A stretch of 22,231 nucleotides of DNA from IMG/VR virus record IMGVR_UViG_3300017782_000256, positions 1 to 22,231 of that record; one strand, given 5' to 3'. Of this stretch, positions 1,361 to 22,231 are shown piece by piece. Source of the stretch: a virus. Under the pieces are notes generated by a model that made no database searches, had not been told where the DNA came from, and was given only the letters and a program-made list of their open reading frames with translations. The first letter of the stretch is position 1; every line of letters starts with the position of its first letter. The position numbers and the translations under genes are program-made.

Positions 1361-1364
1361 TTTC

Positions 1365-2894: not shown

Positions 2895-2913
2895 TTAATC
2901 ACCATTTCATAAT

Positions 2914-2944
2914 ATAAAAAATAAGGTGGGGGCATTTCACCCCC
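2914..2944 (-). terminator. intrinsic-terminator-like hairpin between the small protein gene and gp44
   Basis: On the minus strand GGGGG (2940-2944) and CCCCC (2928-2932) form a 5-bp all-GC stem with a 7-nt loop. After ACCTTA comes a run of six T (2916-2921). The U-tract starts a few bases late, so termination may be partial. It follows the 86-aa gene and precedes gp44 by about 20 nt, where an attenuator would set clamp made in excess over loader. Confidence 0.6.
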
Positions 2945-2951
2945 GAAGTTT

Positions 2952-3878: not shown

Positions 3879-3901
3879 TATATAAGACTCCTGTCATTGT
3901 G

Positions 3902-6638: not shown

Positions 6639-6651
6639 AATATATCCTTAT

Positions 6652-7902: not shown

Positions 7903-7904
7903 AA

Positions 7905-8267
7905 TTAAGTCCATTCCATAGTTTTAACGAATTGCTCAGGAGTCATTGCTTTATCGTCAATATAGTAAACACCGTATGGTTTACCCCAAACAATTTCATC
8001 ATAAGGAACGTCGTACTTTTTTAGCCAATCGACTGTAATCTGTCCGACGTCTTCAATAATTTTATTTATGTCACCGCCATGAGTCAACATTCTGCGTGCT
8101 GTATGTAGCACAATCCGAAAACCTTTTGACTTTGCCTTTTGCAGACTTGCAATCATAGGTTCATTGGGTAGAGCCATAGCATACTTCTGTTCTGATTCTT
8201 TTTGGTTATGTCTAGGGTAACATATAGTATCGTCAATGTCAACCACAATTGTTTCTTGCGTACTCAT
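7905..8267 (-). CDS. HAD-superfamily phosphatase-like protein
   Basis: This compact HAD hydrolase of 120 aa has motif I DIDDT (residues 10-14, nucleophile Asp10 and acid Asp12), motif II LHTAR (Thr), a Lys in GKP as motif III, and motif IV YIDDKA (about 106-111). There is no sizeable cap domain. Such small HAD proteins accompany nucleotidyltransferases in capsule and sugar-nucleotide clusters and remove a phosphate from a sugar phosphate. Here the gene overlaps the nucleotidyltransferase-kinase gene by 29 nt and is followed by the glycosyltransferase, which supports a step in making one sugar donor. The substrate cannot be read from sequence; a 5'-nucleotidase or polynucleotide-phosphatase role is possible. 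Confidence 0.82.
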   Translation of the reverse strand: MSTQETIVVDIDDTICYPRHNQKESEQKYAMALPNEPMIASLQKAKSKGFRIVLHTARRMLTHGGDINKIIEDVGQITVDWLKKYDVPYDEIVWGKPYGVYYIDDKAMTPEQFVKTMEWT

Positions 8268-9714: not shown

Positions 9715-10348
9715 AATTTAATCTCCACTCGTCATATTCATCTTCAAGGTTAACCCATTGCGGTTTGCATAGACCTGACCATGTATGTCTCTTATCCCAA
9801 ACAAACCACGCATAAGCAATCATACCACCTATTTGATGTTTCTTTTCAATCGGCTCAATAGAATCCTTTTTGAATTGAACTCGGTCCGATAGAAATATTA
9901 TATCACTAGGCGGGTGGTTTGTAAACAACTTTTTTCGTTTTTTTCCTTCTAAAAAGGTTAAACGTAGAAACATTGCTACATAGTCATATTCACCTATCCA
10001 TTTTTCCGCCATCTTTCGCGGCAAGTCTTTATGATATGGTGGGTTTGTCACTACTCCATCAAAACCTGTTGGCTTTGGCAATTCCATTGCATCACAAGAA
10101 GTATTTATGCTACATAAAGAATCGGAATATTCATTGAGATCATAACTTAAAACATTGTGACCATTCCGTGCAAGCTCAACTGAAATGTTGCCACGGCCTG
10201 CGCATGGTTCAACTATATCTCTTGGTGGTTTACAATACTTTGTGAGAACGAATGTTGCGAGTGGAGGTGTTGGGTAAAAATCATTCGTTCTTCGGTTAGG
10301 ATCATCTTTCTTGACCCCAACATAAACATCAGTTAGACTATTCGCCAT
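9668..10348 (-). CDS. DNA methyltransferase, adenine-N6 type (NPPY)
   Basis: This class I S-adenosylmethionine methyltransferase has motif IV NPPY, which is typical of amino-methylating DNA enzymes. From the ATG at 10348 it has 226 aa with FYPTPP (24-29), motif I VEPCAGRGN (46-54), motif II with an acidic residue in SYDLNEYS, and VTNPPYHK (100-107). The FYPTPP segment before motif I is usual in phage-type adenine methyltransferases. Longer readings begin only with TTG or GTG and overlap the dCMP deaminase more; the ATG has a weak GGTGA site. The 3' end overlaps the nucleotidyltransferase gene by 47 nt. There is no partner restriction gene, so it is an orphan methylase, likely protecting phage DNA or marking it. 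The target site is unknown. Confidence 0.82.
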   Translation of the reverse strand: MANSLTDVYVGVKKDDPNRRTNDFYPTPPLATFVLTKYCKPPRDIVEPCAGRGNISVELARNGHNVLSYDLNEYSDSLCSINTSCDAMELPKPTGFDGVVTNPPYHKDLPRKMAEKWIGEYDYVAMFLRLTFLEGKKRKKLFTNHPPSDIIFLSDRVQFKKDSIEPIEKKHQIGGMIAYAWFVWDKRHTWSGLCKPQWVNLEDEYDEWRLNYDKCSDTSGRRSNTP

Positions 10349-10859
10349 CTGATCGGTCACCGACAATGGAAACCATTACACCTGCTTCTTTAAACATAGG
10401 AGCTGATTGCTCATCCCATTTGTCAACCCAGGTTTGTGGAGTCATTGGAGTGTTTGGTTTAATTACAACTCGACGAACGCCTGATTGGATAATAAGCTTT
10501 GCACACTCAGGACAAACTGGTAAACCATAAACGTATATAGTAGCATCCTTAACTGATACACCTGAATAAAGAGCATTCATTAACGCATTTGATTCAGCAT
10601 GGACAATTAACGGATATTTCAATTCTCGATTGTTAAGGCGTTCTTCAGTATCTTCAACACCTTTAGGAAAACCGTTATAACCAGTTGCTAGGATACGCCG
10701 CTCATCATTAACAATTATAGCACCAATTTTACTCGAAGGATCTTTACTCCAACAGGCCATCAATGAAGCCATTGTCATAAATCGCTTATCCCATTTGAGT
10801 TGACGTTGATCTTCCTCACGGTATTTTCTCATTACAAATTTATCATATGGTTCTTGCAT
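10338..10859 (-). CDS. cd: deoxycytidylate (dCMP) deaminase
   Basis: The enzyme converts dCMP to dUMP for dTMP synthesis. In 173 aa the zinc site is complete: H87-A-E89 in IVHAESNALMNAL and C116-P-E-C119 in GLPVCPECAK. Upstream is the substrate loop KDPSSKIGAIIV with GYNGFPKG (about 60-67), a dCMP-deaminase signature that separates it from cytidine deaminase. Length is near T4 Cd (193 aa). The ATG shares a base with the ketoacyl synthase stop (TAATG) and has GAGG upstream. Together with the hydroxymethylase at 12773-13471 it diverts dCMP either to dUMP or to hydroxymethyl-dCMP, as in T4. Confidence 0.95.
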   Translation of the reverse strand: MQEPYDKFVMRKYREEDQRQLKWDKRFMTMASLMACWSKDPSSKIGAIIVNDERRILATGYNGFPKGVEDTEERLNNRELKYPLIVHAESNALMNALYSGVSVKDATIYVYGLPVCPECAKLIIQSGVRRVVIKPNTPMTPQTWVDKWDEQSAPMFKEAGVMVSIVGDRSDGE

Positions 10860-12094
10860 TACATACCTCGAATAGCAATAGTTGAATTTAAACCACCAAA
10901 CGCAAAGTTATTACTGATTGCAACATCAACCTTCTTTTCCTTTGCGGTATTTGGTACGACGTCAAGATCACATTCAGGGTCAGGTTCTTCATAGTTAATT
11001 GTCGGTGCAATAATTCCATCATTTACTGCCATGATTGCCGCAAGCAATTCAACTGCACCTGTTCCACCAATGCAATGTCCGTGCATAGATTTGGTTGAAC
11101 TTACACTCAATTTATGAGCATGGTCACCGAATGTTTGTTTGATAGCATCAATTTCAGTTCTATCATTTGGAACTGTGCCTGTACCATGAGCATTTATATA
11201 ATCAACTTGTTCTGGGTTAATTGATGCATCTTTGAGACATTTTTCCATTGATCTAATCAATCCTGAAACTTCAGGCATCACAAGATCACTTGAGTCTGCA
11301 GTACACGCCGCACCTAATACTTCACAGATGATATTTGCACCACGATTTTTAGCATGCCAATATTCTTCAAAGACAAATACGCCTGCACCTTCACCGTGAA
11401 CAATACCTTGACGGCCAAGAGAAAACGGTCGACAGTAGCCTGGGCTTACAACACGCAAACCTTCCCATGCTTTCATTCCTGATAGATTTAGAATTGCTTC
11501 TGAGCCACCTGTCAGCATAACAGGAGCCATACCGTATTTAACCATATGGAATGCTTGTGTCATTGCGTGGTTAGCAGAGGCACATCCTGACGTTACAGTA
11601 AATGATGGACCTTTGATATTATGTTCCATTGAAATATGGCAAACAGGAGCATTACCCATAACACGCGGAATAATAAAAGGATTAGCACGGCGTTTTGGAT
11701 TATCAGATGCAAAGTAATTATGATATGTCCGTTCCCAGGTTTCAGCACCACCACTACCGTTACCCATAATAATACCTGCTTCCTCAGCAAGTTCACCATC
11801 AAATTCTAAACCTGATTGTTCTACTGCTTCACGGGCTGCAAGTATATTGAGTTGTGTAAACCTATCAAAGATTGCAATTTGCATTCTTGTCCAATGGTCT
11901 TTTTCATCATAGCCTTTAATTTGGCCACCACGAGTGTAACGCATATTTTGGATTTCTATGATGTTTTGGAGTTCGCTAATGCCGTCGGTACCTTCGGCCA
12001 TTGCTTTCATTGTATCTTGGGCAGTCCATCCTAAAGAATTTATAGTGCCCATGCCTGTAATAACAACACGGTTAGTCTGTCTTGTTGAGCTCAT
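10859..12094 (-). CDS. beta-ketoacyl synthase (FabF/NodE-like KAS II fold)
   Basis: Ketoacyl synthases condense malonyl-ACP with an acyl thioester. From the ATG at 12094 the protein has 411 aa, the normal KAS II length. The catalytic triad is intact: Cys171 in VTSGCASANHA, His303 in NAHGTGTVPND, and His340 in KSMHGHCIGGTGAVE. HGEGAGVFVFEE and the C-terminal NNFAFGGLN are further family motifs; the latter is closer to NodE-like and secondary-metabolism synthases than to the GFGGTN of housekeeping FabF. It begins inside the end of the preceding 67-aa gene and ends one base into the dCMP deaminase start, so it is an integral operon member. No acyl carrier protein, malonyltransferase or reductase is in the window; it would depend on host ACP. 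Ketosynthases are very unusual in T4-like phages. A role in lipid remodelling or in acylating a nucleobase or other product is open. Confidence 0.93.
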   Translation of the reverse strand: MSSTRQTNRVVITGMGTINSLGWTAQDTMKAMAEGTDGISELQNIIEIQNMRYTRGGQIKGYDEKDHWTRMQIAIFDRFTQLNILAAREAVEQSGLEFDGELAEEAGIIMGNGSGGAETWERTYHNYFASDNPKRRANPFIIPRVMGNAPVCHISMEHNIKGPSFTVTSGCASANHAMTQAFHMVKYGMAPVMLTGGSEAILNLSGMKAWEGLRVVSPGYCRPFSLGRQGIVHGEGAGVFVFEEYWHAKNRGANIICEVLGAACTADSSDLVMPEVSGLIRSMEKCLKDASINPEQVDYINAHGTGTVPNDRTEIDAIKQTFGDHAHKLSVSSTKSMHGHCIGGTGAVELLAAIMAVNDGIIAPTINYEEPDPECDLDVVPNTAKEKKVDVAISNNFAFGGLNSTIAIRGM

Positions 12095-12275
12095 CAATTA
12101 ATGTTTTCCTTTTTTCACTACCCATTGCTCCATCAAAAAGTGATTTGGCAGAAGTCATAAGACAACTGCCGAGCATTAGGATTTCTTCATTATCATCGCA
12201 CATCATAATAAGACGTTCTATTTCAGCATTAAAATATGTCATTCTTTTTACAACGTGGTTTGCGGAATGTGGCAT
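12072..12275 (-). CDS. small protein of unknown function
   Basis: The protein has 67 aa and is mostly helical by composition (VKRMTYFNAEIERLIMMCDD and LGSCLMTSAKSLFDG). There is no signal peptide or DSL motif, so it is not an acyl carrier protein despite lying just before the ketosynthase. The ATG overlaps the previous stop as TAATG, and the end overlaps the ketosynthase start by 23 nt, which indicates coupled translation. I recognise no family. Confidence 0.7.
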   Translation of the reverse strand: MPHSANHVVKRMTYFNAEIERLIMMCDDNEEILMLGSCLMTSAKSLFDGAMGSEKRKTLIDELNKTD

Positions 12276-12547
12276 TACTCTTCAACGAGTTCCACTGAAA
12301 TAACTTTCTTTACTTTAATACCATCCCACCGATCCTTGCGGATATCGTAACAACCAGTATGAGAAGGTGTCAACAAAGGTGGATTGTTTATGCGGCCGCG
12401 CTTGTTTGGCATATCAGGAATTAGTTCAGGCTTGAGTGTGTAATGCTTACTGCGTGTACCAGTTTTATCATTACGTTCCCAGGTGACAAGGCATTCGCCT
12501 TCCTGTAATTTAGCTTTAAATGCTGCTTTACTCCATGTCCCTAGCAT
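12275..12547 (-). CDS. small SH3-like beta-barrel (DUF2693/WYL-like) phage protein
   Basis: The protein has 90 aa. The pattern VTWERNDKTGTRSKHYTLKP, then a loop, then GCYDIRKDRWDGIKVKKVISVE fits the small SH3-like phage family in which a first pair of strands carries a 'K.DGT.R' turn and a later strand carries 'D...WR.F....I'. Members are common in T4-like phages and of unknown role; nucleic-acid binding is often supposed. AGGAG before the ATG at 12547 is a good site lying inside the upstream gene, which it overlaps by 20 nt. The assignment rests on pattern memory, not alignment. Confidence 0.68.
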   Translation of the reverse strand: MLGTWSKAAFKAKLQEGECLVTWERNDKTGTRSKHYTLKPELIPDMPNKRGRINNPPLLTPSHTGCYDIRKDRWDGIKVKKVISVELVEE

Positions 12548-12764
12548 CGGATTCTCCTATCATTCGTTTTTCCATATTTTCTTTTACATCCATTACTTTT
12601 TCATTTTCAATTATATTAATAATGATATTAGTAATGTCTAAATCTTTTTGTAGGAAAGACATTTTGGTTTTTATTTTTTCAATCTGTTCTCGATAAAATT
12701 CAAGCTCTTTTTCTTTTCTGAGCTTTGTCTCGATAACATCTGATATTCGTATTAATTTACTCAT
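12528..12764 (-). CDS. small coiled-coil protein of unknown function
   Basis: The protein has 78 aa, highly charged, with Lys/Glu-rich helix from about residue 10 to 70; the heptad-like spacing of Ile and Leu (FYREQIEKIKTKMSFLQKDL) suggests a coiled coil. No domain is recognised. Its ATG lies only 8 nt after the gp42 stop (TAA at 12773-12775) and has no clear purine-rich site. Initiation probably depends on ribosomes finishing gp42, or on a leaderless message from the TATAAATA at 12770-12777, which I treat as doubtful. Confidence 0.65.
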   Translation of the reverse strand: MSKLIRISDVIETKLRKEKELEFYREQIEKIKTKMSFLQKDLDITNIIINIIENEKVMDVKENMEKRMIGESDARDME

Positions 12765-12772
12765 GGATATAT

Positions 12773-13471
12773 TTATACAACAAGATCAAAATGACGTTCG
12801 TATACGTGCAGGTTCATCACTTGCCATGTCAGCATACCTTTTTCAATAGTAAAGTGTTTATTACCAGGAAGCTCACAACGGTTATTCCATCGAGTAACAA
12901 GTTGATCCATTAGGTATTGCGCCCATGCGTAATCATTCTTGTAACCAAATACAACATCATTAGAACGCATTTGCGATACCATATGTAGAATACCGTCACG
13001 GATATAGAATGTTTGAGCATTGGTACAAATGAAATCAGACTTACCGTTTTCATCAAACTCAACCCAGATAGATGGACGATTGTAAACCATTTGAGCACGA
13101 CGGCTGTCAGGATTACGCCATAGTTCATCAAAGGCATTTTCAAATTGATTAAAATACTTTGGTGAGTTTACAAGGTGACCATAGTTTGAATTGATTTCAC
13201 CGTTTGGATCAGAAGCATATTGCCATGCCGCAGGTGGTTCTTTAGATGGTCCGTAAATATCATTAATATTTGTTGAACCTGATTTGTACCAATCCAATTC
13301 TGATTGAATATAACTTTGACTTGGTTTACCAAAGATTGCTGGTTCAGTTGCAAGAAAGTTTGCACCGATTAATTCAATAGTACGTTGGCCTGTTTTATCA
13401 ATAGTGAATGCTTCATCTTTAAGCTCACCTTTGAAAAACTCACGGATATCATATACGCTATCAATTCTCAT
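12773..13471 (-). CDS. 42: dCMP hydroxymethylase (T4 gp42)
   Basis: The enzyme makes 5-hydroxymethyl-dCMP from dCMP with methylene-tetrahydrofolate. The 232-aa protein matches T4 gp42 (246 aa) over most of its length: DKTGQRTIELIGANF, FGKPSQSYIQSELDWYKS, GEINSNYG, NPDSRRAQMVY, MRSNDVVFGYKNDYAW and LHVYERHFDLV. The catalytic Cys149 is in DFICTNAQTF (T4 Cys148). Asp180 matches T4 Asp179, the residue that replaces the thymidylate-synthase Asn and switches the base specificity to cytosine. That argues against a thymidylate synthase. The C-terminus is slightly shorter than T4's. It starts at 13471 after AAAAGGA, behind a consensus promoter at 13516-13544. The phage therefore very likely incorporates hydroxymethylcytosine. 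Confidence 0.95.
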   Translation of the reverse strand: MRIDSVYDIREFFKGELKDEAFTIDKTGQRTIELIGANFLATEPAIFGKPSQSYIQSELDWYKSGSTNINDIYGPSKEPPAAWQYASDPNGEINSNYGHLVNSPKYFNQFENAFDELWRNPDSRRAQMVYNRPSIWVEFDENGKSDFICTNAQTFYIRDGILHMVSQMRSNDVVFGYKNDYAWAQYLMDQLVTRWNNRCELPGNKHFTIEKGMLTWQVMNLHVYERHFDLVV

Positions 13472-13968
13472 GCGAATGTCCTTTTATAGTTTGACTTGTC
13501 TATTTCTTTAATTCTATTATACAACGGTTCGTTATCAATGTCAATAATTTTATTAAATGTTTCGAGAGCAAATCCTGCGGTATGCCTATTGTCTCGTTTG
13601 TTTTGAATAACTCTAAACCTACGTTGACCGGGTGGCGGTGCTTCCCATAATGTAACAAGCTTTGATCCAGGCCGTGGGTTTTGAACAATAATCCATCGGT
13701 CGGCATTTAAACACTTATCAAGTTGATTACTTACAGCACCACCTTTAGTTGTTGTAATCGGAACAGTAAATGCCTCATACGTTTCCATGTTAGGTACTTT
13801 AAAATGATAATAAATTGTTTGGAATTTAACTTCGGTATGTCTGCCGTCAATCATCATATCCTTTGACATATCAAACGGATCTTCCGACATTTCAACTTTG
13901 CAATTTTGCATCTCAAAGTATTCTTTTACAATACGTTCACCTAATTTACCTAACCGTTCTATGCTCAT
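13468..13968 (-). CDS. PD-(D/E)XK-like nuclease-fold protein
   Basis: The protein has 166 aa. Residues 8-48 carry the layout of a PD-(D/E)XK nuclease: GKLGERIVKEYF (Glu11 on the first helix), an acidic KDMMIDGRHTEVKFQT with Asp41 and the E46-V-K48 core. The rest includes basic and Pro-rich segments PRPGSKL and PPPGQRRFR. Possible roles are a Holliday-junction or repair nuclease, or degradation of unmodified DNA. It shares 4 nt (ATGA) with both neighbours, between the dNTP hydrolase-like gene and gp42. Its 3' end contains the gp42 promoter. The fold call is moderate; the substrate is unknown. Confidence 0.65.
   Translation of the reverse strand: MSIERLGKLGERIVKEYFEMQNCKVEMSEDPFDMSKDMMIDGRHTEVKFQTIYYHFKVPNMETYEAFTVPITTTKGGAVSNQLDKCLNADRWIIVQNPRPGSKLVTLWEAPPPGQRRFRVIQNKRDNRHTAGFALETFNKIIDIDNEPLYNRIKEIDKSNYKRTFA
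13516..13544 (-). promoter_or_regulatory. perfect-consensus sigma70 promoter for gp42
   Basis: On the minus strand TTGACA (13539-13544), a 17-nt spacer and TATAAT (13516-13521) match the bacterial consensus at all twelve positions. It lies in the last codons of the PD-(D/E)XK-like gene. Start near 13509 gives a leader of about 38 nt before gp42. This is the strongest-looking promoter in the window and would give early, high hydroxymethylase expression. Confidence 0.85.
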
Positions 13969-14276
13969 TTTTTAAACCTATCATCAGTATCAATTGGATC
14001 AGACTCAATTGTTGTCATAACAAGAATCATCATTTGAGTTAAGGCATGAGACAAATGTGGCAAACCTGATTCAGGATCTTGATCTTCACCTGACATATAT
14101 GCTAACAAATGACGCTGAATAGATGAGTAATGACGAGAGACAGGAAACTTTTCAATGTCTTGTCGCCAATTGTTTTCACCGTACTTTTCAGCACCAAAAC
14201 CAAATACCTTTGCTGCTTCGATAATAGCCTCAGGTGGAACTAAATGGATTTTGGGTTTGTCATTATCATACTTCAT
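13965..14276 (-). CDS. dATP/dGTP diphosphohydrolase-like protein (DUF5664 family)
   Basis: The protein has 103 aa with the family pattern GAEKYGENNWRQ (about 28-39), a middle RHYSSIQRHLLAYMSGEDQD, and GLPHLSHALTQMMIL (about 71-85). Relatives are annotated in phages as dATP/dGTP diphosphohydrolases; the MazG-like all-alpha hydrolases remove pyrophosphate from dNTPs. Here it sits between the GIY-YIG nuclease and the PD-(D/E)XK-like protein, next to gp42, which fits adjustment of the nucleotide pool for modified DNA. Which dNTP it takes is not certain; a dCTP-removing role like T4 gp56 would make sense in an hmC phage but has no sequence support. Confidence 0.75.
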   Translation of the reverse strand: MKYDNDKPKIHLVPPEAIIEAAKVFGFGAEKYGENNWRQDIEKFPVSRHYSSIQRHLLAYMSGEDQDPESGLPHLSHALTQMMILVMTTIESDPIDTDDRFKK

Positions 14277-14796
14277 TACGAGAGCCTCTGCCTTTTATTT
14301 GAGAATTGAGTAGTGGCTGATAATGGTCAATAGATGCATCTTCAATTAATGGAGCAATCTTTAAGTCATAATCAGCGGTGTTAATGTATTTTATCACAAC
14401 ATCCATAGTTTGTAAACCATTTTCTTTTAGATATTGCCTATATTTTCTACCTGTTACTTCATGGTGTGAGTCAGGTTTAGTAAACGAACTGCGGTGATTG
14501 CCTATCCGTGCATGGATTGAAGAAGTCTTACCATCCGTTTTGCCAATATAAAGTATTGTACCTGTGGATTTTTCTTCCCACATATAAACACCTTTATGTT
14601 CAAATGCCGCTATGCGCCTACCGTGATTACAGCGACGCAATGGAGTTACAATATCAGCTTTATATTCTGTCTTATAACCATGCTCTATGATTTGTAAACA
14701 GACTTCACCGTATTCTATGGCTTCCTCCCAATACTCTTCAATATTGGAAAGAATTTTATCTTGCAGCAAAGCCGCAAGGTCATCAAGTTTTGACAT
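14266..14796 (-). CDS. GIY-YIG nuclease-domain protein
   Basis: The protein has 176 aa. The GIY-YIG module spans about 66-165: GVY (69-71), YIGKT (83-87), HARIGNHR with the catalytic-type Arg97, and a late Glu152 (LIEDASIDHY) and Asn164 (PLLNSQ). The first 60 residues are an acidic helical region with no known domain. No second DNA-binding domain follows, so a simple homing enzyme is less likely. T4 endonuclease II (DenA), which cuts cytosine-containing host DNA, is also a single-domain GIY-YIG protein, and this phage probably has hydroxymethylcytosine in its own DNA, so a host-DNA nuclease is a fair inference. It starts at 14796 after AAAGGA. Confidence 0.82.
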   Translation of the reverse strand: MSKLDDLAALLQDKILSNIEEYWEEAIEYGEVCLQIIEHGYKTEYKADIVTPLRRCNHGRRIAAFEHKGVYMWEEKSTGTILYIGKTDGKTSSIHARIGNHRSSFTKPDSHHEVTGRKYRQYLKENGLQTMDVVIKYINTADYDLKIAPLIEDASIDHYQPLLNSQIKGRGSRNEV

Positions 14797-14808
14797 AACG
14801 TCAGTCCT

Positions 14809-14979
14809 TTATGATTTGTGGTTACGATCCTGTAAACCAATCTTTTTAGCGCCTTTATTCCAGGCACCTGATTTACCACGCCATGTTTTGAAACGTGTCT
14901 TTGAAGGCTCACATTTGGTGATCTCGCCACCATCTTTTACAAAGCTTTCAATCATTTTTTGAATATCAGAATTAGTCAT
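14809..14979 (-). CDS. 56-aa basic protein of unknown function
   Basis: A minus-strand ORF runs from ATG at 14977-14979 to TAA at 14809-14811, with AGGAG at proper spacing before the start. The peptide begins MTNSDIQKMIESFVKDGGEI and continues with a Lys/Arg/Trp-rich half (RFKTWRGKSGAWNKGAKKIG). The pattern of a short helix, then 'GG.IT.C.PS', then a basic glycine-containing tail resembles short nucleic-acid-binding proteins of T4-like phages. It fills an otherwise empty gap between the 94-aa gene and the GIY-YIG gene in the same operon. Confidence 0.78.
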   Translation of the reverse strand: MTNSDIQKMIESFVKDGGEITKCEPSKTRFKTWRGKSGAWNKGAKKIGLQDRNHKS

Positions 14980-14989
14980 ATTATAGCTC

Positions 14990-15274
14990 CTATGTTACGT
15001 TATACACATATACGTCAGCAGTAGTCGATAAGCTCAATGGCAAACCTGTTGTATACCTACGACCATTATGATTACGAGGACCACGACCTTGAAGTTTAAC
15101 ACGCTGTTTGCGATTTCTCATATAACCGTAGCCATCAATTGCATTGTTATAGTTTCTAACAATACCTTTAAGCTGATCAAGAATAGGTTGATCTTCAGGT
15201 GAAACTTGACCATTAACCATATTAACAGTGAAACGGTAAGATTGCGAATAGCGGTTTTTAGATGTTATTTTCAT
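14990..15274 (-). CDS. small basic protein of unknown function
   Basis: The protein has 94 aa, rich in Arg, Asn and Tyr, with the basic middle MRNRKQRVKLQGRGPRNHNG. It shows no signal peptide or membrane segment. It is the first gene after the promoter at 15306-15334, with a leader of only about 25 nt and a weak GGAA site, so it is probably an early protein. The composition would suit a nucleic-acid-binding role; no family is recognised. Confidence 0.72.
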   Translation of the reverse strand: MKITSKNRYSQSYRFTVNMVNGQVSPEDQPILDQLKGIVRNYNNAIDGYGYMRNRKQRVKLQGRGPRNHNGRRYTTGLPLSLSTTADVYVYNVT

Positions 15275-15305
15275 TTTGATTCCATTTTAATTTGTTTATA
15301 CAATC

Positions 15306-15334
15306 AATATAACTGATTCTAAAGCATTTGTCAA
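15306..15334 (-). promoter_or_regulatory. sigma70-type promoter, early type
   Basis: On the minus strand TTGACA (15329-15334), 17 nt, TATATT (15306-15311). A 19-nt block, TTTAGAATCAGTTATATTG, is identical to the promoter at 16171-16199. It drives the 94-aa gene and probably the long operon beyond. Confidence 0.8.
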
Positions 15335-15348
15335 TGGTTAATTTGAAA

Positions 15349-15510
15349 TTAAATCAAATTAAGTAGACCTGCTGTACCTAAAAACAAAATTAAACCTGTT
15401 AATGACCATGCCAATACTTCTAACTCAGCACCGACTTTTTTGTCATCCACAATATATGCACCAAACAGTCCACCTACAATCATGCCTGCTATAATAAAAA
15501 CTACTTCCAT
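15349..15510 (-). CDS. 53-aa membrane protein with two predicted transmembrane helices
   Basis: The ORF runs from ATG at 15508-15510 to TAA at 15349-15351. The peptide MEVVFIIAGMIVGGLFGAYI is hydrophobic, then a short charged loop VDDKKVGAELE, then a second hydrophobic stretch to the C-terminus (about 33-53). The GGAG of its ribosome binding site lies in the last codons of the preceding gene, and stop and start are 3 nt apart, so it is coupled. Two short helices with a small polar loop could be a host-membrane modulator or a holin-like protein, but the position among early genes speaks against holin. The end lies close to the next promoter. Confidence 0.72.
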   Translation of the reverse strand: MEVVFIIAGMIVGGLFGAYIVDDKKVGAELEVLAWSLTGLILFLGTAGLLNLI

Positions 15511-15513
15511 CGC

Positions 15514-15747
15514 TTACTCCTTAAGTTGGAATTTTGAACCAAATCCAACCGCGTCTTGTTTATATTCAAAAAAGAATGTATCTTCATATACATCTGTAAA
15601 TTTTCGGTGCACCCATTGCTGTTTATGTAATTGCACTTTGCACCATTGAGTTGCTGCCCATCTATTATCCGAATGAATGGCAACGACGTAAAAATTACCG
15701 CTGCTCATCCATCGTTGTTTATGATCTGCTATTTCTTGTGGCGTCAT
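15514..15747 (-). CDS. small phage protein of unknown function
   Basis: From the ATG at 15747 the protein has 77 aa and begins MTPQEIADHKQRWMSSG. It is Trp- and aromatic-rich, with YTDVYE-like and TFFFEY segments (about 52-62). I recognise the 'MTPQEIADHK..W' start and a 'W.....W.....TDVYE.TFFFE' pattern as a small protein common in T4-like marine phages, with no known function. The ATG at 15747 is preferred over 15753 because AAGGA stands at the right distance only for it, and it overlaps the upstream stop as ATGA. Confidence 0.75.
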   Translation of the reverse strand: MTPQEIADHKQRWMSSGNFYVVAIHSDNRWAATQWCKVQLHKQQWVHRKFTDVYEDTFFFEYKQDAVGFGSKFQLKE

Positions 15748-16145
15748 ACCCATTCCTTATATTCAACAATACCTAATAGATCTTCAATTAATTTCTTACC
15801 ATATTGAGTAAACAAAATTCCTTGTTCCCATACAAAATGCTCAACATCTTGACTATGATAAAAGGTTTCTTGACCAGTAATCCAACTCAATGCTGTTTTA
15901 CGGTCACCGGCACCAAGGCTGATAACATCTTGAACACGTGCTTCAAACTTTGCAACATCACGTTCTTCCTGAGATTTTGTTTCAGCCATTTGGATATCAA
16001 GGGCACGGCAATACTCATCCCACGTTTTTTGTTTTTCCGCAGGTGTACAGTTATTCCAATCATCCCAATATGCACCACGAGGTCTATAACCATAAACTTC
16101 TTTGTGTAAATCTGAAATACAATCATCTGAATATGTATAAGTCAT
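15744..16145 (-). CDS. protein of unknown function, first gene of an early operon
   Basis: From the ATG at 16145 the protein has 133 aa, beginning MTYTYSDDCISDLHKEVYGY. It contains RPRGAYWDDWNNCTPAEKQKTWDEY, an acidic and aromatic stretch, and a helical middle rich in Glu. Proteins with 'LHK.VYG.RPRG..W..W.....EKQ..WD.L' are frequent in T4-like phages without assigned function. A longer reading from TTG at 16199 is rejected because it would begin inside the -35 box of the promoter at 16171-16199; AAGGA precedes the ATG at 16145. Confidence 0.8.
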   Translation of the reverse strand: MTYTYSDDCISDLHKEVYGYRPRGAYWDDWNNCTPAEKQKTWDEYCRALDIQMAETKSQEERDVAKFEARVQDVISLGAGDRKTALSWITGQETFYHSQDVEHFVWEQGILFTQYGKKLIEDLLGIVEYKEWV

Positions 16146-16170
16146 TGTTTGTTCCTTTGTTGATGATTCC

Positions 16171-16199
16171 AATATAACTGATTCTAAACCAAATGTCAA
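16171..16199 (-). promoter_or_regulatory. sigma70-type promoter, early type
   Basis: On the minus strand TTGACA (16194-16199), 17 nt, TATATT (16171-16176). It shares an identical 19-nt block with the promoter at 15306-15334. Transcription would start near 16164, about 19 nt before the ATG at 16145. Confidence 0.82.
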
Positions 16200-16232
16200 T
16201 AGGAAACATCATTTTTTTTAGTAGATAAATCT

Positions 16233-16271: not shown

Positions 16272-16279
16272 TATAAATA
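16272..16279 (+). promoter_or_regulatory. T4-type late promoter TATAAATA
   Basis: TATAAATA is the whole -10 element of T4 late promoters (sigma gp55 with gp45 and gp33). It stands 30 nt before the plus-strand start codon at 16309 in an intergenic region, with transcription expected near 16286 and a GAGAGG ribosome binding site at about 16295-16301. The same 8-mer can arise by chance in this AT-rich DNA, but position and strand fit. Confidence 0.7.
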
Positions 16280-16308
16280 ATTGCACGCAACTATAGAGAG
16301 GCATTAGC

Positions 16309-16794
16309 ATGAGCACGCCATTTGTATCATTAGGTAATTACTTTGACAAGCAACCTATGATTGACTTGTTTAACGATAACAGAAGCAGTAGGCTTCAAAA
16401 ATTTGGAGCAGCCACTGGCAACCTCCCTTCTGATTTATCATTAACTTGGGATCAAATGTATTTCAATGCAGATGAAGCTAACCTGTTTAGAAGTCTTCCT
16501 CTTACGCCAAGGGGATTTCAGTTTTCTTTATCTCAGCCAAACTTCAACTATTCTATACATAAAGATGACCCAGTGGTAGGATCTAAAGTAGGAACATTAT
16601 TGTTTGGGACAGGGGATATCGTATTTTATGACGAGTCTGATGTTGAAACGCATCGTCACGACTGGTCGACTGATATTGTAAAGAATGCTCAGTATAAGCA
16701 TGCAGCAACCGCAGGGTCAGATGGAGAAAGATTAACTCTTTGGGTAAACTTTTCTGAAGATTATGAAACTGTTAAAGCTGCGTTTGGGGTGTAG
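16309..16794 (+). CDS. 2OG-Fe(II) oxygenase-like protein, only plus-strand gene
   Basis: The protein has 161 aa. A cupin-like core carries IHKDD (His84, Asp86) and a distal QYKHAA (His131), followed ten residues later by Arg141, in the order HxD ... H ... R used by 2-oxoglutarate and iron dependent oxygenases. The intervening strands GSKVGTLLFGTGDIVFYDES fit the double-stranded beta helix. It is clearly paralogous to the minus-strand protein at 18064-18525 (shared IHKD, FYD-E, DWS-DI / DYSEDI, the H then R, and an NF-E end). It begins at 16309 behind a late promoter, so it may be made late and reach the virion or modify a structural protein. Its 3' end overlaps the convergent gene by 34 nt. 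The substrate is unknown. Confidence 0.78.
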   Translation: MSTPFVSLGNYFDKQPMIDLFNDNRSSRLQKFGAATGNLPSDLSLTWDQMYFNADEANLFRSLPLTPRGFQFSLSQPNFNYSIHKDDPVVGSKVGTLLFGTGDIVFYDESDVETHRHDWSTDIVKNAQYKHAATAGSDGERLTLWVNFSEDYETVKAAFGV

Positions 16795-17249
16795 TTACCA
16801 ACTATATGTGTTCTTAGGAGTTGGTTCCTCGTAGAGTTTAAAGCAGTGTGTTTCAAAGTAGTATCTACCAAATATATGCTACCGTCTGCAGGAAGTCTGT
16901 AAATCTTATCTTCAATAATAAGCATGCAGTTTTCATCTGTTACTAAAGGTATGTGTACTCTCGGAGCAGAATCCCAATGATAAGAGTAACAAGAACTTGG
17001 ACCTAAATTCATTATCCTTGTTCTATAAAGATTAAAATCAGTAATAATTTTATTAGTATATAAAAGAGTGTCATATAAAGAAACGGTATAATCAGTTTCT
17101 TTATGTTTTAAGTCTTTTATTTTACCGATCCCCGATTTATCATTTTTTGAAACTCCCTGCAAAGCAGTTTGTCCTAAGCTAATAAATTCTTTTATTTCTT
17201 CTAATATCCAGTCAATATCACAAGAACCTATTATTTGTATTGGTTTCAT
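16761..17249 (-). CDS. aspartyl/asparaginyl beta-hydroxylase-like oxygenase
   Basis: The protein has 162 aa. The C-terminal half follows the Asp/Asn-hydroxylase cupin pattern: YSYHWDSAPRVHIPLVTDEN (about 88-107), a strand LIIEDKIYRLPADGSIYLVD with the usual 'G..Y..D', LKHTALN (His134) and LLRTHIV (Arg146). Such enzymes bind Fe(II) and 2-oxoglutarate and hydroxylate peptides or small molecules. The N-terminal 70 residues carry no motif. The start overlaps the sulfotransferase stop (TAATG). It is the most downstream gene of the accessory cluster and converges on the plus-strand oxygenase. Confidence 0.78.
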   Translation of the reverse strand: MKPIQIIGSCDIDWILEEIKEFISLGQTALQGVSKNDKSGIGKIKDLKHKETDYTVSLYDTLLYTNKIITDFNLYRTRIMNLGPSSCYSYHWDSAPRVHIPLVTDENCMLIIEDKIYRLPADGSIYLVDTTLKHTALNSTRNQLLRTHIVGNYTPNAALTVS

Positions 17250-18067
17250 TATAATAAACCCTCTATATAGTTCCTTACTTCAGAATAGTTTTCTATCAAG
17301 TCTTCGTAAGGAATATTTCTTTTTATAGTTGGACTAAATCCGTGTTTTGGTTTCCAATTTTTATCACCAATAATTTCAATCATTTTTTCAACAATAGCAT
17401 CTTCAGTTTCTAAATCTTCATAGTAGGCTATTGTATAATCAATACCTTTCAGTATTAATTCATGTTCAATGTCATGAGTTTTGTTTACTCTAGGAATAAA
17501 AGTTTTTATGTATTCTTCTCTAGATGAACCACTTAAGTTTATTGTAACTTTTTGACTTGTTGCTTTGTTGTAAGCTTTTATGTTAGCTTCATCTTGTCTT
17601 ATCGTAAATATACTAATTGTACCAGCATATAATGTACTAATAATCTGCTCGACAATATCTTTTCTTTTAGTAATTACCCAATGACGATTTTTATAAAACT
17701 CTACTAAATCCGGGCACTCAGCGCATTGCATAGTTCCTTTAAAGTAAAATTCTAATCCTAGATCACGAGCTTCTTTTAAAATCTTGACTTTATAATTATT
17801 TCTTTTTTCTAAACTATTATGCACGTAGGGATAAATGTAGTGTATGTGCATATTCCCATCATATATAATAGGATATAACTCGGTTGGGTACTCGACGTTT
17901 TCTCTATAATTAAAAACTCTATTACTATAATTAAATTCTAAAAACAATTCAGAATGGTTTATAATTGGTCTTAAACCATGATAATTTATTGCAGCATCTT
18001 CTGCTAGCTCGTATAATAATGTGCTTCTTGTTCTAGGGGGTGATAAGAAAAAAGGAGGTTTGTTCAT
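17249..18067 (-). CDS. sulfotransferase-family protein
   Basis: Sulfotransferases move sulfate from PAPS to a hydroxyl or amine. The 272-aa protein opens with FFLSPPRTRSTLLYELAED (6-24); SPPRTRSTLL fits the 5'-phosphosulfate-binding loop (S.PR.GST.L). A later VITKRKDIVEQIISTLYAG (about 131-149) resembles the 3'-phosphate-binding helix region, and the end has IAYYEDLETEDAIVEKM typical of the family. The middle is less conserved. It overlaps the upstream 2OG-like gene by ATGA. Arg codons are mostly AGA, unlike the replication genes. The acceptor may be the product of this cluster or a host or phage surface glycan. Confidence 0.8.
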   Translation of the reverse strand: MNKPPFFLSPPRTRSTLLYELAEDAAINYHGLRPIINHSELFLEFNYSNRVFNYRENVEYPTELYPIIYDGNMHIHYIYPYVHNSLEKRNNYKVKILKEARDLGLEFYFKGTMQCAECPDLVEFYKNRHWVITKRKDIVEQIISTLYAGTISIFTIRQDEANIKAYNKATSQKVTINLSGSSREEYIKTFIPRVNKTHDIEHELILKGIDYTIAYYEDLETEDAIVEKMIEIIGDKNWKPKHGFSPTIKRNIPYEDLIENYSEVRNYIEGLL

Positions 18068-18525
18068 AATTTACTTCTCACTATATCAACACTCTCTTCA
18101 AAGTTAGCAAAGAATGTAAGTCTCCATTGGTCGTTATTTTTGACACTGTGTCTTACTTGAACATCAGTCAAAATGTCTTCTGAATAATCATACGAATCTA
18201 TTACGGTTTCCTCGTCATCGTAAAATAAAATACTAGCCTCGCCTTCGAGTAAACATCCTATTCTAGATAAAATTAAACTATAATCTTTATGTATCACCAT
18301 TTCATAGTTTGGAGGCATATAAACAAATTGGTATCCTCTACACTTTGGTGTTTTAAAAAGATCTTTTCCTTCTTCCCATGAAAAATACATTTCATAGTAA
18401 TCTCGTTCAATTATTTCTGCACCTTTTGTTTTATACTTGTGTAGCTTACTATCCTTATAATGTTCAAAGATAGTAAGAAGTACTTCTTTGTTGAAGTATT
18501 CACCGATTGTAATGTAAGGTTTCAT
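18064..18525 (-). CDS. 2OG-Fe(II) oxygenase-like protein, paralogue of the plus-strand gene
   Basis: The protein has 153 aa and the same layout as the plus-strand protein at 16309-16794: IHKDY (His79, Asp81), strands LSRIGCLLEGEASILFYDDEE, DYSEDI, VRHSV (His126), WRLTFFANFEES with Arg135. The HxD, H and R set suggests an Fe(II)/2-oxoglutarate site. Overall identity to the paralogue is modest, so the duplication is old or the copies came separately. The gene overlaps the SnoaL-like gene by 26 nt at its start and the sulfotransferase by 4 nt at its end. The substrate is unknown; a small peptide or lipid-like product of the cluster is possible. Confidence 0.75.
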   Translation of the reverse strand: MKPYITIGEYFNKEVLLTIFEHYKDSKLHKYKTKGAEIIERDYYEMYFSWEEGKDLFKTPKCRGYQFVYMPPNYEMVIHKDYSLILSRIGCLLEGEASILFYDDEETVIDSYDYSEDILTDVQVRHSVKNNDQWRLTFFANFEESVDIVRSKL

Positions 18526-19360
18526 CTATAAAACTTTCATATTCTTTGTTTATACTACGAAATAAATCTATCATATCTATCTGACACCAATTATCAACTA
18601 ATTTTTCCCCATCGCATGACCAGAAATCCATCACTGAAATTCTTGGTTGTTTTCCTTCTGGTTTGAATCCAAAGTATTCTCCTTTGTGAGTGCAGGTCAT
18701 ACTTGGATGACCCATAAGACCAGCATAATTACCATCAGTGAAAATAACTTTATTAATACCTTTTGATCCATCACGGTCTGGTATAAAGTCTAAAAATCTA
18801 GATTGATGATACTCTTGGAATCCACGAAGGCCTTTTAAATGTCCAATTGCAAAAGGACCAACCCAATGCATTTGTTCTACATCCCAATGCTTGTCCATTT
18901 CCATAGAGCTTAATGACTCGCCATCATATTCTCTTAGGCCTTGTATCATACCAAATAATACATCCCAACAATCATCGTTATTTCTTTCAATAGTTGGATA
19001 GTGTATTTGTTTTACTCTATGCGGATCCATGCTACTATCACACGCCCAATAATAACTTCTTTGCCATGGGCATAAGTCTTGCTTTCCAAAGAATTCAGTC
19101 ATATCACAATTGATAAAATGACCGTGGCAATTTTCTTGTTCACCAATTTGAAATGTATATCTTTTTTTATCAGGCTTTAATGACTTCCACTTTTTAGAAA
19201 ATGTTCCACTTATATAATATACTTTGCCTTTGCAAAACTTATTATTAATTAAAAAATTACTTTTAATATTTAGAACTTCAACTTTTTCAATATCAGAAAA
19301 GCAATCCCAAAATTTATCCCATTCTTTTTCATTTTTAAACGGATACGAATAATTTATCAT
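18500..19360 (-). CDS. SnoaL-like (NTF2-fold) protein
   Basis: The protein has 286 aa. Residues about 155-270 show a SnoaL-like pattern: WVGPFAIGHLKGLRGFQEYH (166-185) with the 'G..G.F...H' segment, then GHPSMTCTHKGEYFGFKPEG (about 217-236), which fits 'G.H.G.F.G..P.G', and ISVMDFWSCDGEKLVDNW and IDMIDLF, the usual end of the fold. SnoaL proteins close polyketide rings in actinomycete biosynthesis, and many other members act as isomerases or hydrolases. Residues 1-150 are less clear and may hold a second, degraded copy. It follows the radical SAM gene by 3 nt with GGAG inside that gene's last codons. Together with the ketosynthase elsewhere it is suggestive of polyketide-like chemistry, but the fold alone does not prove it. 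Confidence 0.7.
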   Translation of the reverse strand: MINYSYPFKNEKEWDKFWDCFSDIEKVEVLNIKSNFLINNKFCKGKVYYISGTFSKKWKSLKPDKKRYTFQIGEQENCHGHFINCDMTEFFGKQDLCPWQRSYYWACDSSMDPHRVKQIHYPTIERNNDDCWDVLFGMIQGLREYDGESLSSMEMDKHWDVEQMHWVGPFAIGHLKGLRGFQEYHQSRFLDFIPDRDGSKGINKVIFTDGNYAGLMGHPSMTCTHKGEYFGFKPEGKQPRISVMDFWSCDGEKLVDNWCQIDMIDLFRSINKEYESFIDETLHYNR

Positions 19361-19363
19361 ATA

Positions 19364-20824
19364 TCACTCCAAATCTACAGACTCTAATAAGTCTTTAATA
19401 TTATCATTTAATATTATATTATCTCTTTTTAAAATATTTTTTACTCTGGTTCTTATAAAGTTATTATATCTATAACCCATGCGCCAAGCTTCTAAATAGA
19501 TCTCCAACCATCTTGCTAATCTATCATCATAAGATCCTACAATGTTATTTGACCAATCTGATTCGCCATCAACTAATTCATTGCCAATCATATAGTGATG
19601 AGTGTCCCATAATGGAGTTCCAGGTATCATTTGCATCATACTAAAGCTCATATGAATTTGATCTTTCCATTGAGAACACCATTCTACAAATCTTTTTGTT
19701 TCTTCGAAATCTTCTCGTGTTTCAGTTGGATAACCAACGATAATCAAACAACCAAATTCAATACCGCGAATCATCATTTGTTCCACTTCATAATACATAT
19801 CTTCATTGGAAAATTTCTTAAGCATATGGTCTCTTACCGATTCACTACCACTTTCTATTCCAATATAAAGTCTTGTAACTCCGCTATCTCTTAAATTATC
19901 AAAATCTTCAAGTGACATAAAGTTCTTTTTTCTTATGATGTTTTGGCCTTCCCACGTAATTTTATCATCTGTATTTTTATTAAATTCAGCAAGAAGCCGT
20001 AACATCTTTTTGTATTCTTTATTTCCATTTACTAATGAATCGGTAAAGACGAAATGTCTAATATCTGCTTCATGATACTGATGCATAATTTCTTTAAATC
20101 CATGCTCAGCTGATCTATATCTATATGTAGGCCATAATTTTACTACGTCGCAAAAAGTGCATCTTCTTACGCACCCTCTGCTCGCTGTAATGAAGGCTTG
20201 TTTCATATCATATTTTTTCCAATCAGTAAAGTCTGGAAAAACTGGATCTTCAAGAGAAGGTAATCTTGCCGGCATATCCATATTAAGACCAACGATATTA
20301 TCTTTACCTAAACATAAATCTCTTAGTGCAAATTCTCCTTCTCCATTAATATAATAATCTGTTAGTTTATTTTCTAAACAATATCTACCGAACACATTAT
20401 TCGTATCTACACTGACTGATCTATGCACTGCAGCTTGCTCTTGCATAGGAATACTTACACCTGGTCCACCAATCACTGTCGGTATATTGCTATGTTCTTT
20501 TATGTATTCCAATATAAACAAACACCATCTATGACTATGATAAGATAATACACTTAATGCTATAAGATCTGGCTTTTGATTAATTATATCTTGAACATAA
20601 ACTTCAACATATGTTATAACTTTTTCGTAATCATCTTCTACGTTCAATGCAAAATTTTCTACTAGATTACTTCCAAAATTATTTCTTTCTAAGTCAATAA
20701 CTAAATCGTGTATAGATGTTTTTAAACCAATATCTCTTAGGACTCCAGATAGCATTGCAGAGGCTGCACACGCCCTATCTACTTGTCGGCGCGGAACACT
20801 TATGAAAGAAACGGAATTATACAT
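19364..20824 (-). CDS. B12-binding-type radical SAM enzyme
   Basis: The protein has 486 aa. Residues 1 to about 165 look like a cobalamin-binding Rossmann domain: LIALSVLSYHSH, PTVIGGPG and YINGEGE; the DxHxxG histidine of base-on B12 binding is absent, as in many class B radical SAM proteins. The radical SAM core has SRGCVRRCTFCD with Cys218, Cys222 and Cys225 for the 4Fe-4S cluster, followed by FVFTDS, an IGIESGSESV segment (the usual GIESG) and LIIVGYPTETREDFEET, giving the complete TIM-barrel order. Such enzymes methylate unactivated carbons or rearrange natural products. The start at 20824 overlaps the ATP-grasp end by 8 nt, and a late-promoter-like TATAAATA lies about 46 nt before it. 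A radical SAM methylase or mutase for the cluster product is likely. Confidence 0.88.
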   Translation of the reverse strand: MYNSVSFISVPRRQVDRACAASAMLSGVLRDIGLKTSIHDLVIDLERNNFGSNLVENFALNVEDDYEKVITYVEVYVQDIINQKPDLIALSVLSYHSHRWCLFILEYIKEHSNIPTVIGGPGVSIPMQEQAAVHRSVSVDTNNVFGRYCLENKLTDYYINGEGEFALRDLCLGKDNIVGLNMDMPARLPSLEDPVFPDFTDWKKYDMKQAFITASRGCVRRCTFCDVVKLWPTYRYRSAEHGFKEIMHQYHEADIRHFVFTDSLVNGNKEYKKMLRLLAEFNKNTDDKITWEGQNIIRKKNFMSLEDFDNLRDSGVTRLYIGIESGSESVRDHMLKKFSNEDMYYEVEQMMIRGIEFGCLIIVGYPTETREDFEETKRFVEWCSQWKDQIHMSFSMMQMIPGTPLWDTHHYMIGNELVDGESDWSNNIVGSYDDRLARWLEIYLEAWRMGYRYNNFIRTRVKNILKRDNIILNDNIKDLLESVDLE

Positions 20825-21740
20825 TATAAGTATTTACTTTAAAATCTAATTGTTTTTTTCTTCTTATTCTATTTATAGGAGAATATCCAAACTGTTGATG
20901 CTCTAAATAAAAGCATTCAACTTTATGAGTATATGAAATTATTTCTGGTGGTGTTTTTCCAAAAATATAATCACACCAATTTTGGTCACTCACATCTGTA
21001 TCGTATGAACCCACATCAAATCCTCCAAAGGGTCTTAAATTAAAATCAATAGAATATAAATTATCATCTACATCTTTTAAAAATTGCCAGCCAAACAGAC
21101 GATTTTTAACTGATATTTTTTGAGATAATTTCAAAACGCTTTCTTCAATAATATTGAAATCTTCAGCACGAATTTTATATGGTGTGTAAGATTGAGATGG
21201 ACAGTTATCTACATAAAACATTATATGATTATTAAGCCAATACCATTTCTCATCGTCTGCATAAAAATGGCATGATACTATGTATTCGATTTCTACGTTG
21301 TTTTGAAAAAACCCTGTTGCTTCTTCTCTTGGCACAATTTTAAAATTAGTCCCACCGCTTAAATCGCTTTTACAAATTACTTCATCACCGTCATTTGGAA
21401 CTGTAGGTATACGAAGTTCTTTAAATATTCGGTCTTGCTCTGCTTTAGATGAAAAGAATTGCATGCTGTCGTAATTTAAAAACGTGGGTATGTTAAATCT
21501 TTCACATATTTCTTTTTCTTTTTGAAGGTACCAATCCTGTTCTTTTAAATTAATTACTAGATCTGGCTTCCAATTATTAAAAATAGAATCATCAGAGTAT
21601 GACATCTCATCTAAGTTTGAATCATTATTTGAATGATATCCACTTAAATTATAAAATCGGCAATCGTGTTTATCCTTTACATAATTATATATTGGTAAAA
21701 GTTTGCGTTTGGTTCCTAAAAACAATATGTTCTTCATCAT
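20817..21740 (-). CDS. ATP-grasp ligase-like protein
   Basis: The protein has 307 aa. The N-terminus (MMKNILFLGTKRKLLPIYNY) is the pre-ATP-grasp Rossmann domain. The ATP-grasp part includes FSSKAEQDRIFKELRIPTVP (about 96-115), VICKSDLSGGTNFKIV (121-136, the nucleotide-binding Lys and Gly-rich loop), IEYIVSCHFYADD (151-163, the base-binding hinge), and DFNLRPFGGFDV with the metal ligands Asp232, Asn234 and Arg236. These enzymes join a carboxylate to an amine or thiol through an acyl phosphate. The partner substrate cannot be read. The start overlaps the upstream stop (TAATGATG). It is probably part of the same unknown pathway as the radical SAM gene. Confidence 0.82.
   Translation of the reverse strand: MMKNILFLGTKRKLLPIYNYVKDKHDCRFYNLSGYHSNNDSNLDEMSYSDDSIFNNWKPDLVINLKEQDWYLQKEKEICERFNIPTFLNYDSMQFFSSKAEQDRIFKELRIPTVPNDGDEVICKSDLSGGTNFKIVPREEATGFFQNNVEIEYIVSCHFYADDEKWYWLNNHIMFYVDNCPSQSYTPYKIRAEDFNIIEESVLKLSQKISVKNRLFGWQFLKDVDDNLYSIDFNLRPFGGFDVGSYDTDVSDQNWCDYIFGKTPPEIISYTHKVECFYLEHQQFGYSPINRIRRKKQLDFKVNTYNV
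20870..20877 (-). promoter_or_regulatory. possible late promoter TATAAATA before the radical SAM gene
   Basis: On the minus strand TATAAATA lies in the end of the ATP-grasp gene, 46 nt upstream of the radical SAM ATG. It matches the T4 late -10 element, but in this AT-rich window a few chance copies are expected, so it is only a candidate. Confidence 0.35.
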
Positions 21741-22231
21741 TACATTATCAACCCAAAGTTTTTAGAAATAAAGTGTATGAATTGAAGTTCTTTAAACTTT
21801 ATGTTTGTTTCTAACTCATGCTTTCTTTGTTTGAAATGGCGGCTGGTTGGATCATAGGCAGCCAGCTTAGTAGTATCGTGTTTGAAATGCCATTTCTCTT
21901 GTAGGCGCATTACAGGTACATTATTGACCCTAGTCTTATATGACATTATAGTTTCATTATCGTGCCCAAATGATCTACGGATTTCCTCAGTATACATTGA
22001 GAATTCCTTAACCTCATCCATTAGATCTAACAATTCATCAATGCCGCCAAAGTAATCAAGCTGTTCCATAATCTTTCGGCTTGACATCATAATCCCAGTA
22101 TTGAATACCCAATTGTCACCATCAAGATCTTCCTCTGCCAACAATGCGTGCGCATTCCAATACTTTGCTTGAGGATTACGGAAATCTTTATTATAATGTT
22201 TGAAATATAATGGATCTCTTACATTAACTCC
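21740..22231 (-). CDS. glycosyltransferase-like protein, C-terminal part, cut by the window edge
   Basis: The reading frame is open to the right edge, with 163 codons visible and no start needed here; a TTG at 22144 is not a convincing start. The visible part contains RDPLYFKHYNKDF, NWVFNTGIMMSSRKIMEQLD, HDNETIMSYKTRV and LQEKWHFKHD. The series 'FNTGIMM', 'D..T.M' and 'L..KW' resembles the C-terminal half of GT-A glycosyltransferases such as GT8. The catalytic DxD would lie before the edge and cannot be seen. It overlaps the ATP-grasp gene by one base and is upstream in the accessory cluster. Confidence 0.6.
   Translation of the reverse strand, partial: GVNVRDPLYFKHYNKDFRNPQAKYWNAHALLAEEDLDGDNWVFNTGIMMSSRKIMEQLDYFGGIDELLDLMDEVKEFSMYTEEIRRSFGHDNETIMSYKTRVNNVPVMRLQEKWHFKHDTTKLAAYDPTSRHFKQRKHELETNIKFKELQFIHFISKNFGLIM

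Follow-up and report, generated by a model that had tools for sequence, protein, structure and literature searches.

An exchangeable, compositionally distinct cassette of putative tailoring genes in a marine T4-like phage

The window analysed here is the whole IMG/VR virus record IMGVR_UViG_3300017782_000256, a 22,231-base fragment of a T4-superfamily phage genome. Near its right-hand end, between a late promoter motif and a glycosyltransferase-like gene, lies a block of tailoring-type genes that is real, compositionally distinct and exchangeable; a sister contig with nearly identical flanks carries a different, inverted block in the same place. The reading that we favour, and hold tentatively, is that this block is a late-expressed tailoring cassette of a marine T4-like phage, occupying a hypervariable region of the host-recognition type and decorating a component of the virion or of the host surface. 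The features in question are the following.

16272-16279, plus strand: T4-type late promoter motif TATAAATA, 29 nt upstream of the HxD2 ATG; left breakpoint of the exchangeable cassette
16280-21740, no strand assigned: exchangeable cassette, replaced in the sister contig by an inverted, differently composed block of ~4.4 kb
16309-16794, plus strand: HxD2, a small protein of 161 amino acids with an HxD...H...R motif, a 31% identical paralogue of HxD1
16761-17249, minus strand: AspH, an aspartyl/asparaginyl beta-hydroxylase-like 2-oxoglutarate (2OG) oxygenase (PF05118, E 1.9e-5; HxD at residues 91-93, H134, R145)
17249-18067, minus strand: putative sulfotransferase, a tentative assignment from an N-terminal motif resembling the loop that binds 3'-phosphoadenosine-5'-phosphosulfate (PAPS)
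18064-18525, minus strand: HxD1, putatively a small 2OG oxygenase, part of the recurring module and recognised by motif (65-75% identical in contigs L002 and L001)
18500-19360, minus strand: SnoaL, a tandem-domain SnoaL/ester-cyclase-like protein and core gene of the module (PF07366, E 1.2e-9)
19364-20824, minus strand: radical SAM protein with an N-terminal B12-binding-like domain (PF04055, E 1.8e-18)
20817-21740, minus strand: putative carboxylate-amine ligase of ATP-grasp type, belonging to the module core (motifs; TIGR03909, E 0.002)
21740-22231, minus strand: 3' portion of a gene for a two-domain glycosyltransferase-like protein, truncated at the contig end; right flank common to window and sister

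Much of the window from 1 to 16200 is occupied by clamp loader, sliding clamp and nucleotide-metabolism genes, and the clamp loader is closest to those of Stenotrophomonas phage DLP6 and Methylophilales phage Melnitz (57-54%), with cyanophages next. The seven consecutive minus-strand open reading frames (ORFs), namely the truncated glycosyltransferase-like ORF and then six genes (16761-21740), are joined by overlaps of 1-26 bases except for one 3-base gap. This confirms a first-pass annotation made from the letters of the window alone, which had overlooked HxD2 as an eighth gene. The same annotation had described the cluster as rich in AGA codons and in AT, and had proposed its separate acquisition. 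GC is indeed ~0.31 overall in the cassette against 0.37 in the backbone (0.29-0.32 for the six cassette genes and mostly 0.35-0.41 for backbone genes), and AGA and AGG together supply 76% of the Arg codons in the cassette against 28% in the backbone (AGA+AGG vs CGN, p=2e-13; AGA alone, 71% against 22%). This shift and the exchange described below both support separate acquisition. The Pelagibacter phage Mosig (MT647606) has at 91733-91810 a tRNA-Arg(TCT), which reads AGA, the Arg codon preferred in the window cassette; neither the window nor the related fragments yielded a tRNA gene.

The sister contig, IMGVR_UViG_3300040806_002587 (50,297 bases; loci L001 and L009-L011), is identical to the window at 96.3% of DNA positions over 1-16202 and at 96.6% over 21755-22231. 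Its block, on the strand opposite to that of the window's, encodes ATP-grasp, SnoaL, HxD1, a different AspH and an FG-GAP repeat protein; in the minus-strand counterpart of the window, the radical SAM gene is placed between ATP-grasp and SnoaL. The matching pieces are inverted relative to each other, with 94% identity over most of ATP-grasp and 80% over SnoaL-HxD1. The left breakpoint falls at TATAAATA, since a finer comparison showed the intergenic regions of the two contigs to be alignable up to the motif, and the right breakpoint lies in the last codons of the glycosyltransferase-like gene. No long inverted repeats were found at the cassette ends, so that recombinational replacement is a likelier source of the flip than an invertible segment acting as a programmed switch. 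An assembly chimera is an unlikely explanation, given that the two flanks connect to one and the same backbone and that the core unit turns up again in other contigs.

ATP-grasp and SnoaL genes are neighbours in four other IMG/VR contigs (L001, L002, L003 and L004). Downstream of this pair stand HxD1, AspH and FG-GAP in L001, HxD1, a sulfotransferase-like gene (PF03567), AspH and FG-GAP in L002, and AspH in L003, and L004 ends after the core; AspH follows the core in three contigs and HxD in two. Together, the window and these contigs represent at least three phage lineages, because L001 is the sister, L002 and L004 are close relatives, and gp41 is 56% identical between L002 and L003. Between the window and L003, SnoaL is 65% identical, gp44 50% and gp45 31%, and the higher identity of SnoaL would fit transfer between lineages or strong constraint. 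The window radical SAM gene is absent from all four related contigs and is best read as an insertion into an older ATP-grasp - SnoaL pair. Scans of genome collections with the SnoaL alignment and the radical SAM gene gave no relative, viral scans with the radical SAM gene, HxD2 and the sulfotransferase found none, a strict ATP-grasp motif scan returned nothing beyond the four known contigs, and searches of cultured phages for SnoaL, ATP-grasp, HxD1, HxD2 and the sulfotransferase found none. Counts of absence are lower bounds, since pattern scans with back-translated queries detect only close relatives and since sequences very near to the window may be hidden in the collections.

The first-pass annotation had seen a natural-product or glycan-tailoring operon here, a view that scattered occurrence of its genes in related phages would have undermined. 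Across the related phages the set is only partly conserved and only partly scattered. A core of ATP-grasp and SnoaL is conserved in phages, and the conserved core spans two to four genes; the full set as one pathway is unsupported, because the radical SAM gene and the window sulfotransferase occur in none of the other contigs. That absence favours an alternative that we regard as unlikely, namely that unrelated accessory genes share one late-transcribed slot with no common pathway beyond the ATP-grasp - SnoaL pair. The AspH subtypes vary between contigs (22-34% identity), HxD2 stands alone on the opposite strand, and the host recognition region of Mosig holds a different gene mix, all of which would suit such a loose collection. 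However, several contigs preserve the gene order ATP-grasp, SnoaL, HxD, (sulfotransferase), AspH together with the overlaps between frames, and in L002 the slot of the window sulfotransferase is filled by a different, unrelated-looking sulfotransferase-like gene (PF03567, E 0.0028), which argues against it.

Two further elements accompany the module in other contigs. In two of them (L001 12033-13058 and L002 12481-13293), the last gene of the cassette encodes an FG-GAP repeat (beta-propeller) protein, which could be both an adhesin and a substrate of the cassette enzymes. Between the late promoter and ATP-grasp of the sister (L001 ~8950-9085), a 28-codon ORF (MPLIQIEDRDSLKSMI...) overlaps the ATP-grasp start; it has no full-length relative in the other contigs and may be a leader, a relic or a precursor peptide.

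The enzyme identities that the first-pass annotation proposed are upheld by profiles for AspH, SnoaL and the radical SAM core, whereas ATP-grasp, the 2OG oxygenase (HxD) and the sulfotransferase are recognised by motifs and the B12 domain falls below its cut-off. The SnoaL protein reaches 38.5 bits against a cut-off of 28.4, has relatives 65-85% identical in the four contigs and is under purifying selection (ratio of nonsynonymous to synonymous substitution rates, dN/dS, of 0.11 between window and sister). The constraint on ATP-grasp is weaker (dN/dS 0.35), and the synonymous sites of HxD1 are saturated in the same comparison. The radical SAM protein has the CX3CX2C motif (GCVRRCTFC), and its N-terminus matches the B12-binding family PF02310 with E 5.8e-5 and 23.4 bits, under the cut-off of 32.1. 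For ATP-grasp, the best profile, TIGR03909 (PylC), gave 16.8 bits, far under the cut-off of 248, and no Pfam ATP-grasp match was obtained for any of the five family members. Its K-x-D-x-SGG and D-x-N-x-R motifs are conserved among relatives 50-85% identical in the four contigs, and the protein may therefore work like an ATP-grasp ligase. HxD1 and HxD2 had no family match in profile searches; HxD1 has the HxD...H...R motif, with H79xD81, H126 and R135 invariant, and comparing the profile of HxD with that of AspH gave no match. The putative sulfotransferase carries its PAPS-loop-like motif as 'SPPRTRST' and has no sulfotransferase profile match in Pfam, PHROGs, NCBIfam or PDB. No Pfam match was found for the truncated glycosyltransferase-like ORF, of which the complete version in the sister (L001) has 591 amino acids and two DxD motifs.

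The more distant relatives of SnoaL raise the question of metabolism. Full-length relatives with ~22-30% identity are tandem 'ester cyclase' genes that lie on plasmids of Ruegeria, Marinovum, Vibrio and an archaeon, Halobellus, in clusters with ABC transporters, in several cases methionine-synthase-II-like genes, and also histidinol-dehydrogenase-like genes; the literature searched held no account of what these bacterial clusters do. The plasmid proteins align with phage SnoaL over its full length and share the W-GP-x-G and D-F/Y-W...NW...D motifs, but the phage form lacks ~40 N-terminal residues and the gene neighbourhoods are entirely different. These relatives and their neighbours would suit a helper role in which SnoaL and the oxygenases act on a metabolite abundant in the sea, on the model of the tandem SnoaL clusters of roseobacters and haloarchaea. 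We consider this improbable, as the full-length identity is low, none of the partner genes of the bacterial clusters is found in the phage cassettes, and a ligase and a sulfotransferase suggest synthesis rather than breakdown.

AspH bears on a further rival, a free product. The window protein exceeds the PF05118 cut-off (25.0 bits against 22.6) and has the invariant H91xD93 and H134 together with R145, and the AspH profile matches PDB 7v4f with E 4e-16. This closest solved relative is the caprazamycin hydroxylase Cpz10, an enzyme of caprazamycin biosynthesis (PMC9814697). Cpz10-type hydroxylases and the cassette AspH belong to a common sequence family, but the nucleoside antibiotic genes are not in the window cassette. 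This relative, and an enzyme mix like that of natural-product tailoring, point to an amino-acid- or peptide-derived small molecule, secreted or used within the infected cell, as the cassette product. Such an outcome seems to us distinctly unlikely: the block holds no recognised scaffold-building gene (non-ribosomal peptide synthetase, polyketide synthase, or precursor of a ribosomally synthesized and post-translationally modified peptide) and no exporter, and in L003 the module lies downstream of tail fibre genes.

What leads back to decoration of a virion or host-surface component is the probable position beside tail genes, together with the late promoter motif that marks the edge of the cassette. 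Upstream of the L003 module, and reading in its direction, stand a tail fibre gene (phrog_30742, E 1e-48) and two more genes, one of them sharing 44% identity with a Mosig gene from the neighbourhood of VrlC and baseplate gp8; the window itself ends short of tail-fibre and VrlC-region genes, the contigs being fragments. Pelagimyophages carry a hypervariable host recognition cluster (HRC) with glycosyltransferases and radical SAM cassettes (PMC7029224), and the place expected of an HRC in marine T4-like phages is the structural region, between VrlC and gp14, with the tail fibres. The block likewise differs between close relatives, with a swapped and inverted interior between 96% identical flanks, and glycosyltransferase genes belong to the island: the glycosyltransferase-like gene adjoins the window cassette, and a further sister gene (L001:15413-16030) matches glycosyltransferase phrog_1962 with E 1e-12. 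In the sister, the glycosyltransferase-like gene lies within a run holding two SPASM-type radical SAM genes and further members of these two families. These two radical SAM genes (L001 16011-18315) are adjacent, near tail-region genes, and 28% identical to each other.

Mosig is the sole cultured phage that matches both the glycosyltransferase-like gene (29% to genes of its host recognition region) and the window AspH (36% to a Mosig AspH). Its corresponding region holds AspH genes, a TauD-like gene, an aminotransferase, a nitroreductase, and several MoaA-like radical SAM and transferase genes, and further 2OG oxygenases and a sulfotransferase are encoded elsewhere. The first-pass description of the cluster as an unknown pathway unlike T4 genes has to be softened, as marine T4-like phages ordinarily carry AspH, 2OG oxygenase, sulfotransferase, radical SAM and glycosyltransferase genes, and many of these lie in the hypervariable HRC (PMC7029224). 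The HRC of pelagimyophages and cyanomyophages, exemplified by Mosig (EXVC030M, MT647606), resembles the cassette in being a hypervariable island, for the cassette probably too by tail-fibre and baseplate genes, with glycosyltransferases, AspH, radical SAM cassettes, late promoter motifs ahead of tailoring operons and cassette exchange between relatives (PMC7029224). The parts of Mosig that were searched are, however, without ATP-grasp, SnoaL, HxD and the window radical SAM, and the window phage differs in having a dCMP hydroxymethylase and a clamp loader closest to those of DLP6 and Melnitz.

Mosig also bears on timing. In the parts of its genome examined, 20 of the 25 TATAAATA sites lie <=80 nt upstream of annotated coding sequences, many of them for head, neck, fibre and baseplate proteins, compared with 206 of 1703 (12%) sites of other 8-mers of the same composition (p 3e-14), and the phage has genes for a late sigma factor and for an accessory protein of late transcription. 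The motif heads each of its two divergent tailoring operons. Within the 35-base gap between them, late promoter motifs overlap on both strands (MT647606 60971-60990). In the sister, TATAAATA stands 126 nt before ATP-grasp.

The presumed late expression matters for the possibility that the cassette enzymes elaborate 5-hydroxymethylcytosine in DNA. The ORF at 12773-13471, labelled 'thymidylate synthase', is a T4-type dCMP hydroxymethylase (PDB 1b49, E 5e-61), so the window phage probably has 5-hydroxymethylcytosine DNA, and we retain DNA hypermodification as a rival on that account; genes for a nucleotidyltransferase-kinase fusion and for a C5 methyltransferase lie close by. Yet all three genes belong to the conserved backbone, outside the cassette, and the block sits at a late promoter, whereas the DNA-modifying genes of T4 are early, which makes this rival very improbable. 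The region 5415-9714 comprises the C5 cytosine methyltransferase-like gene, a 420-amino-acid gene of no assigned function, a HAD phosphatase-like gene and the fusion, possibly for sugar activation in DNA or surface glycosylation. Elsewhere in the backbone, the dCMP deaminase (10338-10859) and dCMP hydroxymethylase are 74% and 86% identical to those of the sister, compared with ~97-100% for neighbouring proteins, suggesting two separate local replacements. A FabF-like beta-ketoacyl-ACP synthase (10859-12097; E 1e-122) is identical in the sister, and 14266-14796 may encode a GIY-YIG/Eco29kI-like nuclease (PF09517, E 3.6e-4, under cut-off).

Two phages with 96% identical flanks carry different cassette versions in opposite orientations, joined at the same late promoter and the same glycosyltransferase-like gene. 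Under the surface-decoration reading, the ATP-grasp enzyme would, late in infection, couple a group with an amino or carboxyl function to an acceptor, HxD and AspH as 2OG oxygenases would hydroxylate it, SnoaL would isomerise, cyclise or hydrate an intermediate, and the variable enzymes (sulfotransferase, C-methylating radical SAM) would cap the product. This product would decorate a virion fibre, a baseplate-associated protein, or a glycan handled by the adjacent glycosyltransferases, and a change of cassette would alter the surface chemistry met by hosts or competing phages.

Several observations weigh against this reading. The window contains no more TATAAATA sites than chance predicts (3 vs 3.04 expected), and in L002 and L004 just 7 nt separate the motif from the ATG, which leaves too little room for an ordinary leader; the late-promoter claim consequently draws its support from the position of the motif and from Mosig. 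For the cassette enzymes, no substrate, precursor or acceptor was identified, and the assignments of ATP-grasp, HxD and sulfotransferase are motif-level predictions. The distant relatives of SnoaL sit in catabolic-looking plasmid clusters, not in surface-glycan loci, and the AlphaFold models, built from shallow alignments, are poor (mean pLDDT 40.7 for SnoaL and 48.2 for HxD1).

Beside their tail genes, marine T4-like phages keep large sets of oxygenases, radical SAM enzymes and transferases that are poorly understood. The window and its sister form a natural pair of near-identical genomes that differ mainly in one cassette, and the definition of a small recurring core, ATP-grasp and SnoaL, frequently joined by HxD and AspH, makes a testable unit out of an ill-defined island. 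In its boldest form, which we think somewhat unlikely, the combination of ATP-grasp, tandem SnoaL and HxD would form a biosynthetic unit that is peculiar to phages and not yet described, makes a new chemical group on the surface of the virion or the infected cell, and is swapped and flipped as a whole cassette at a late promoter.

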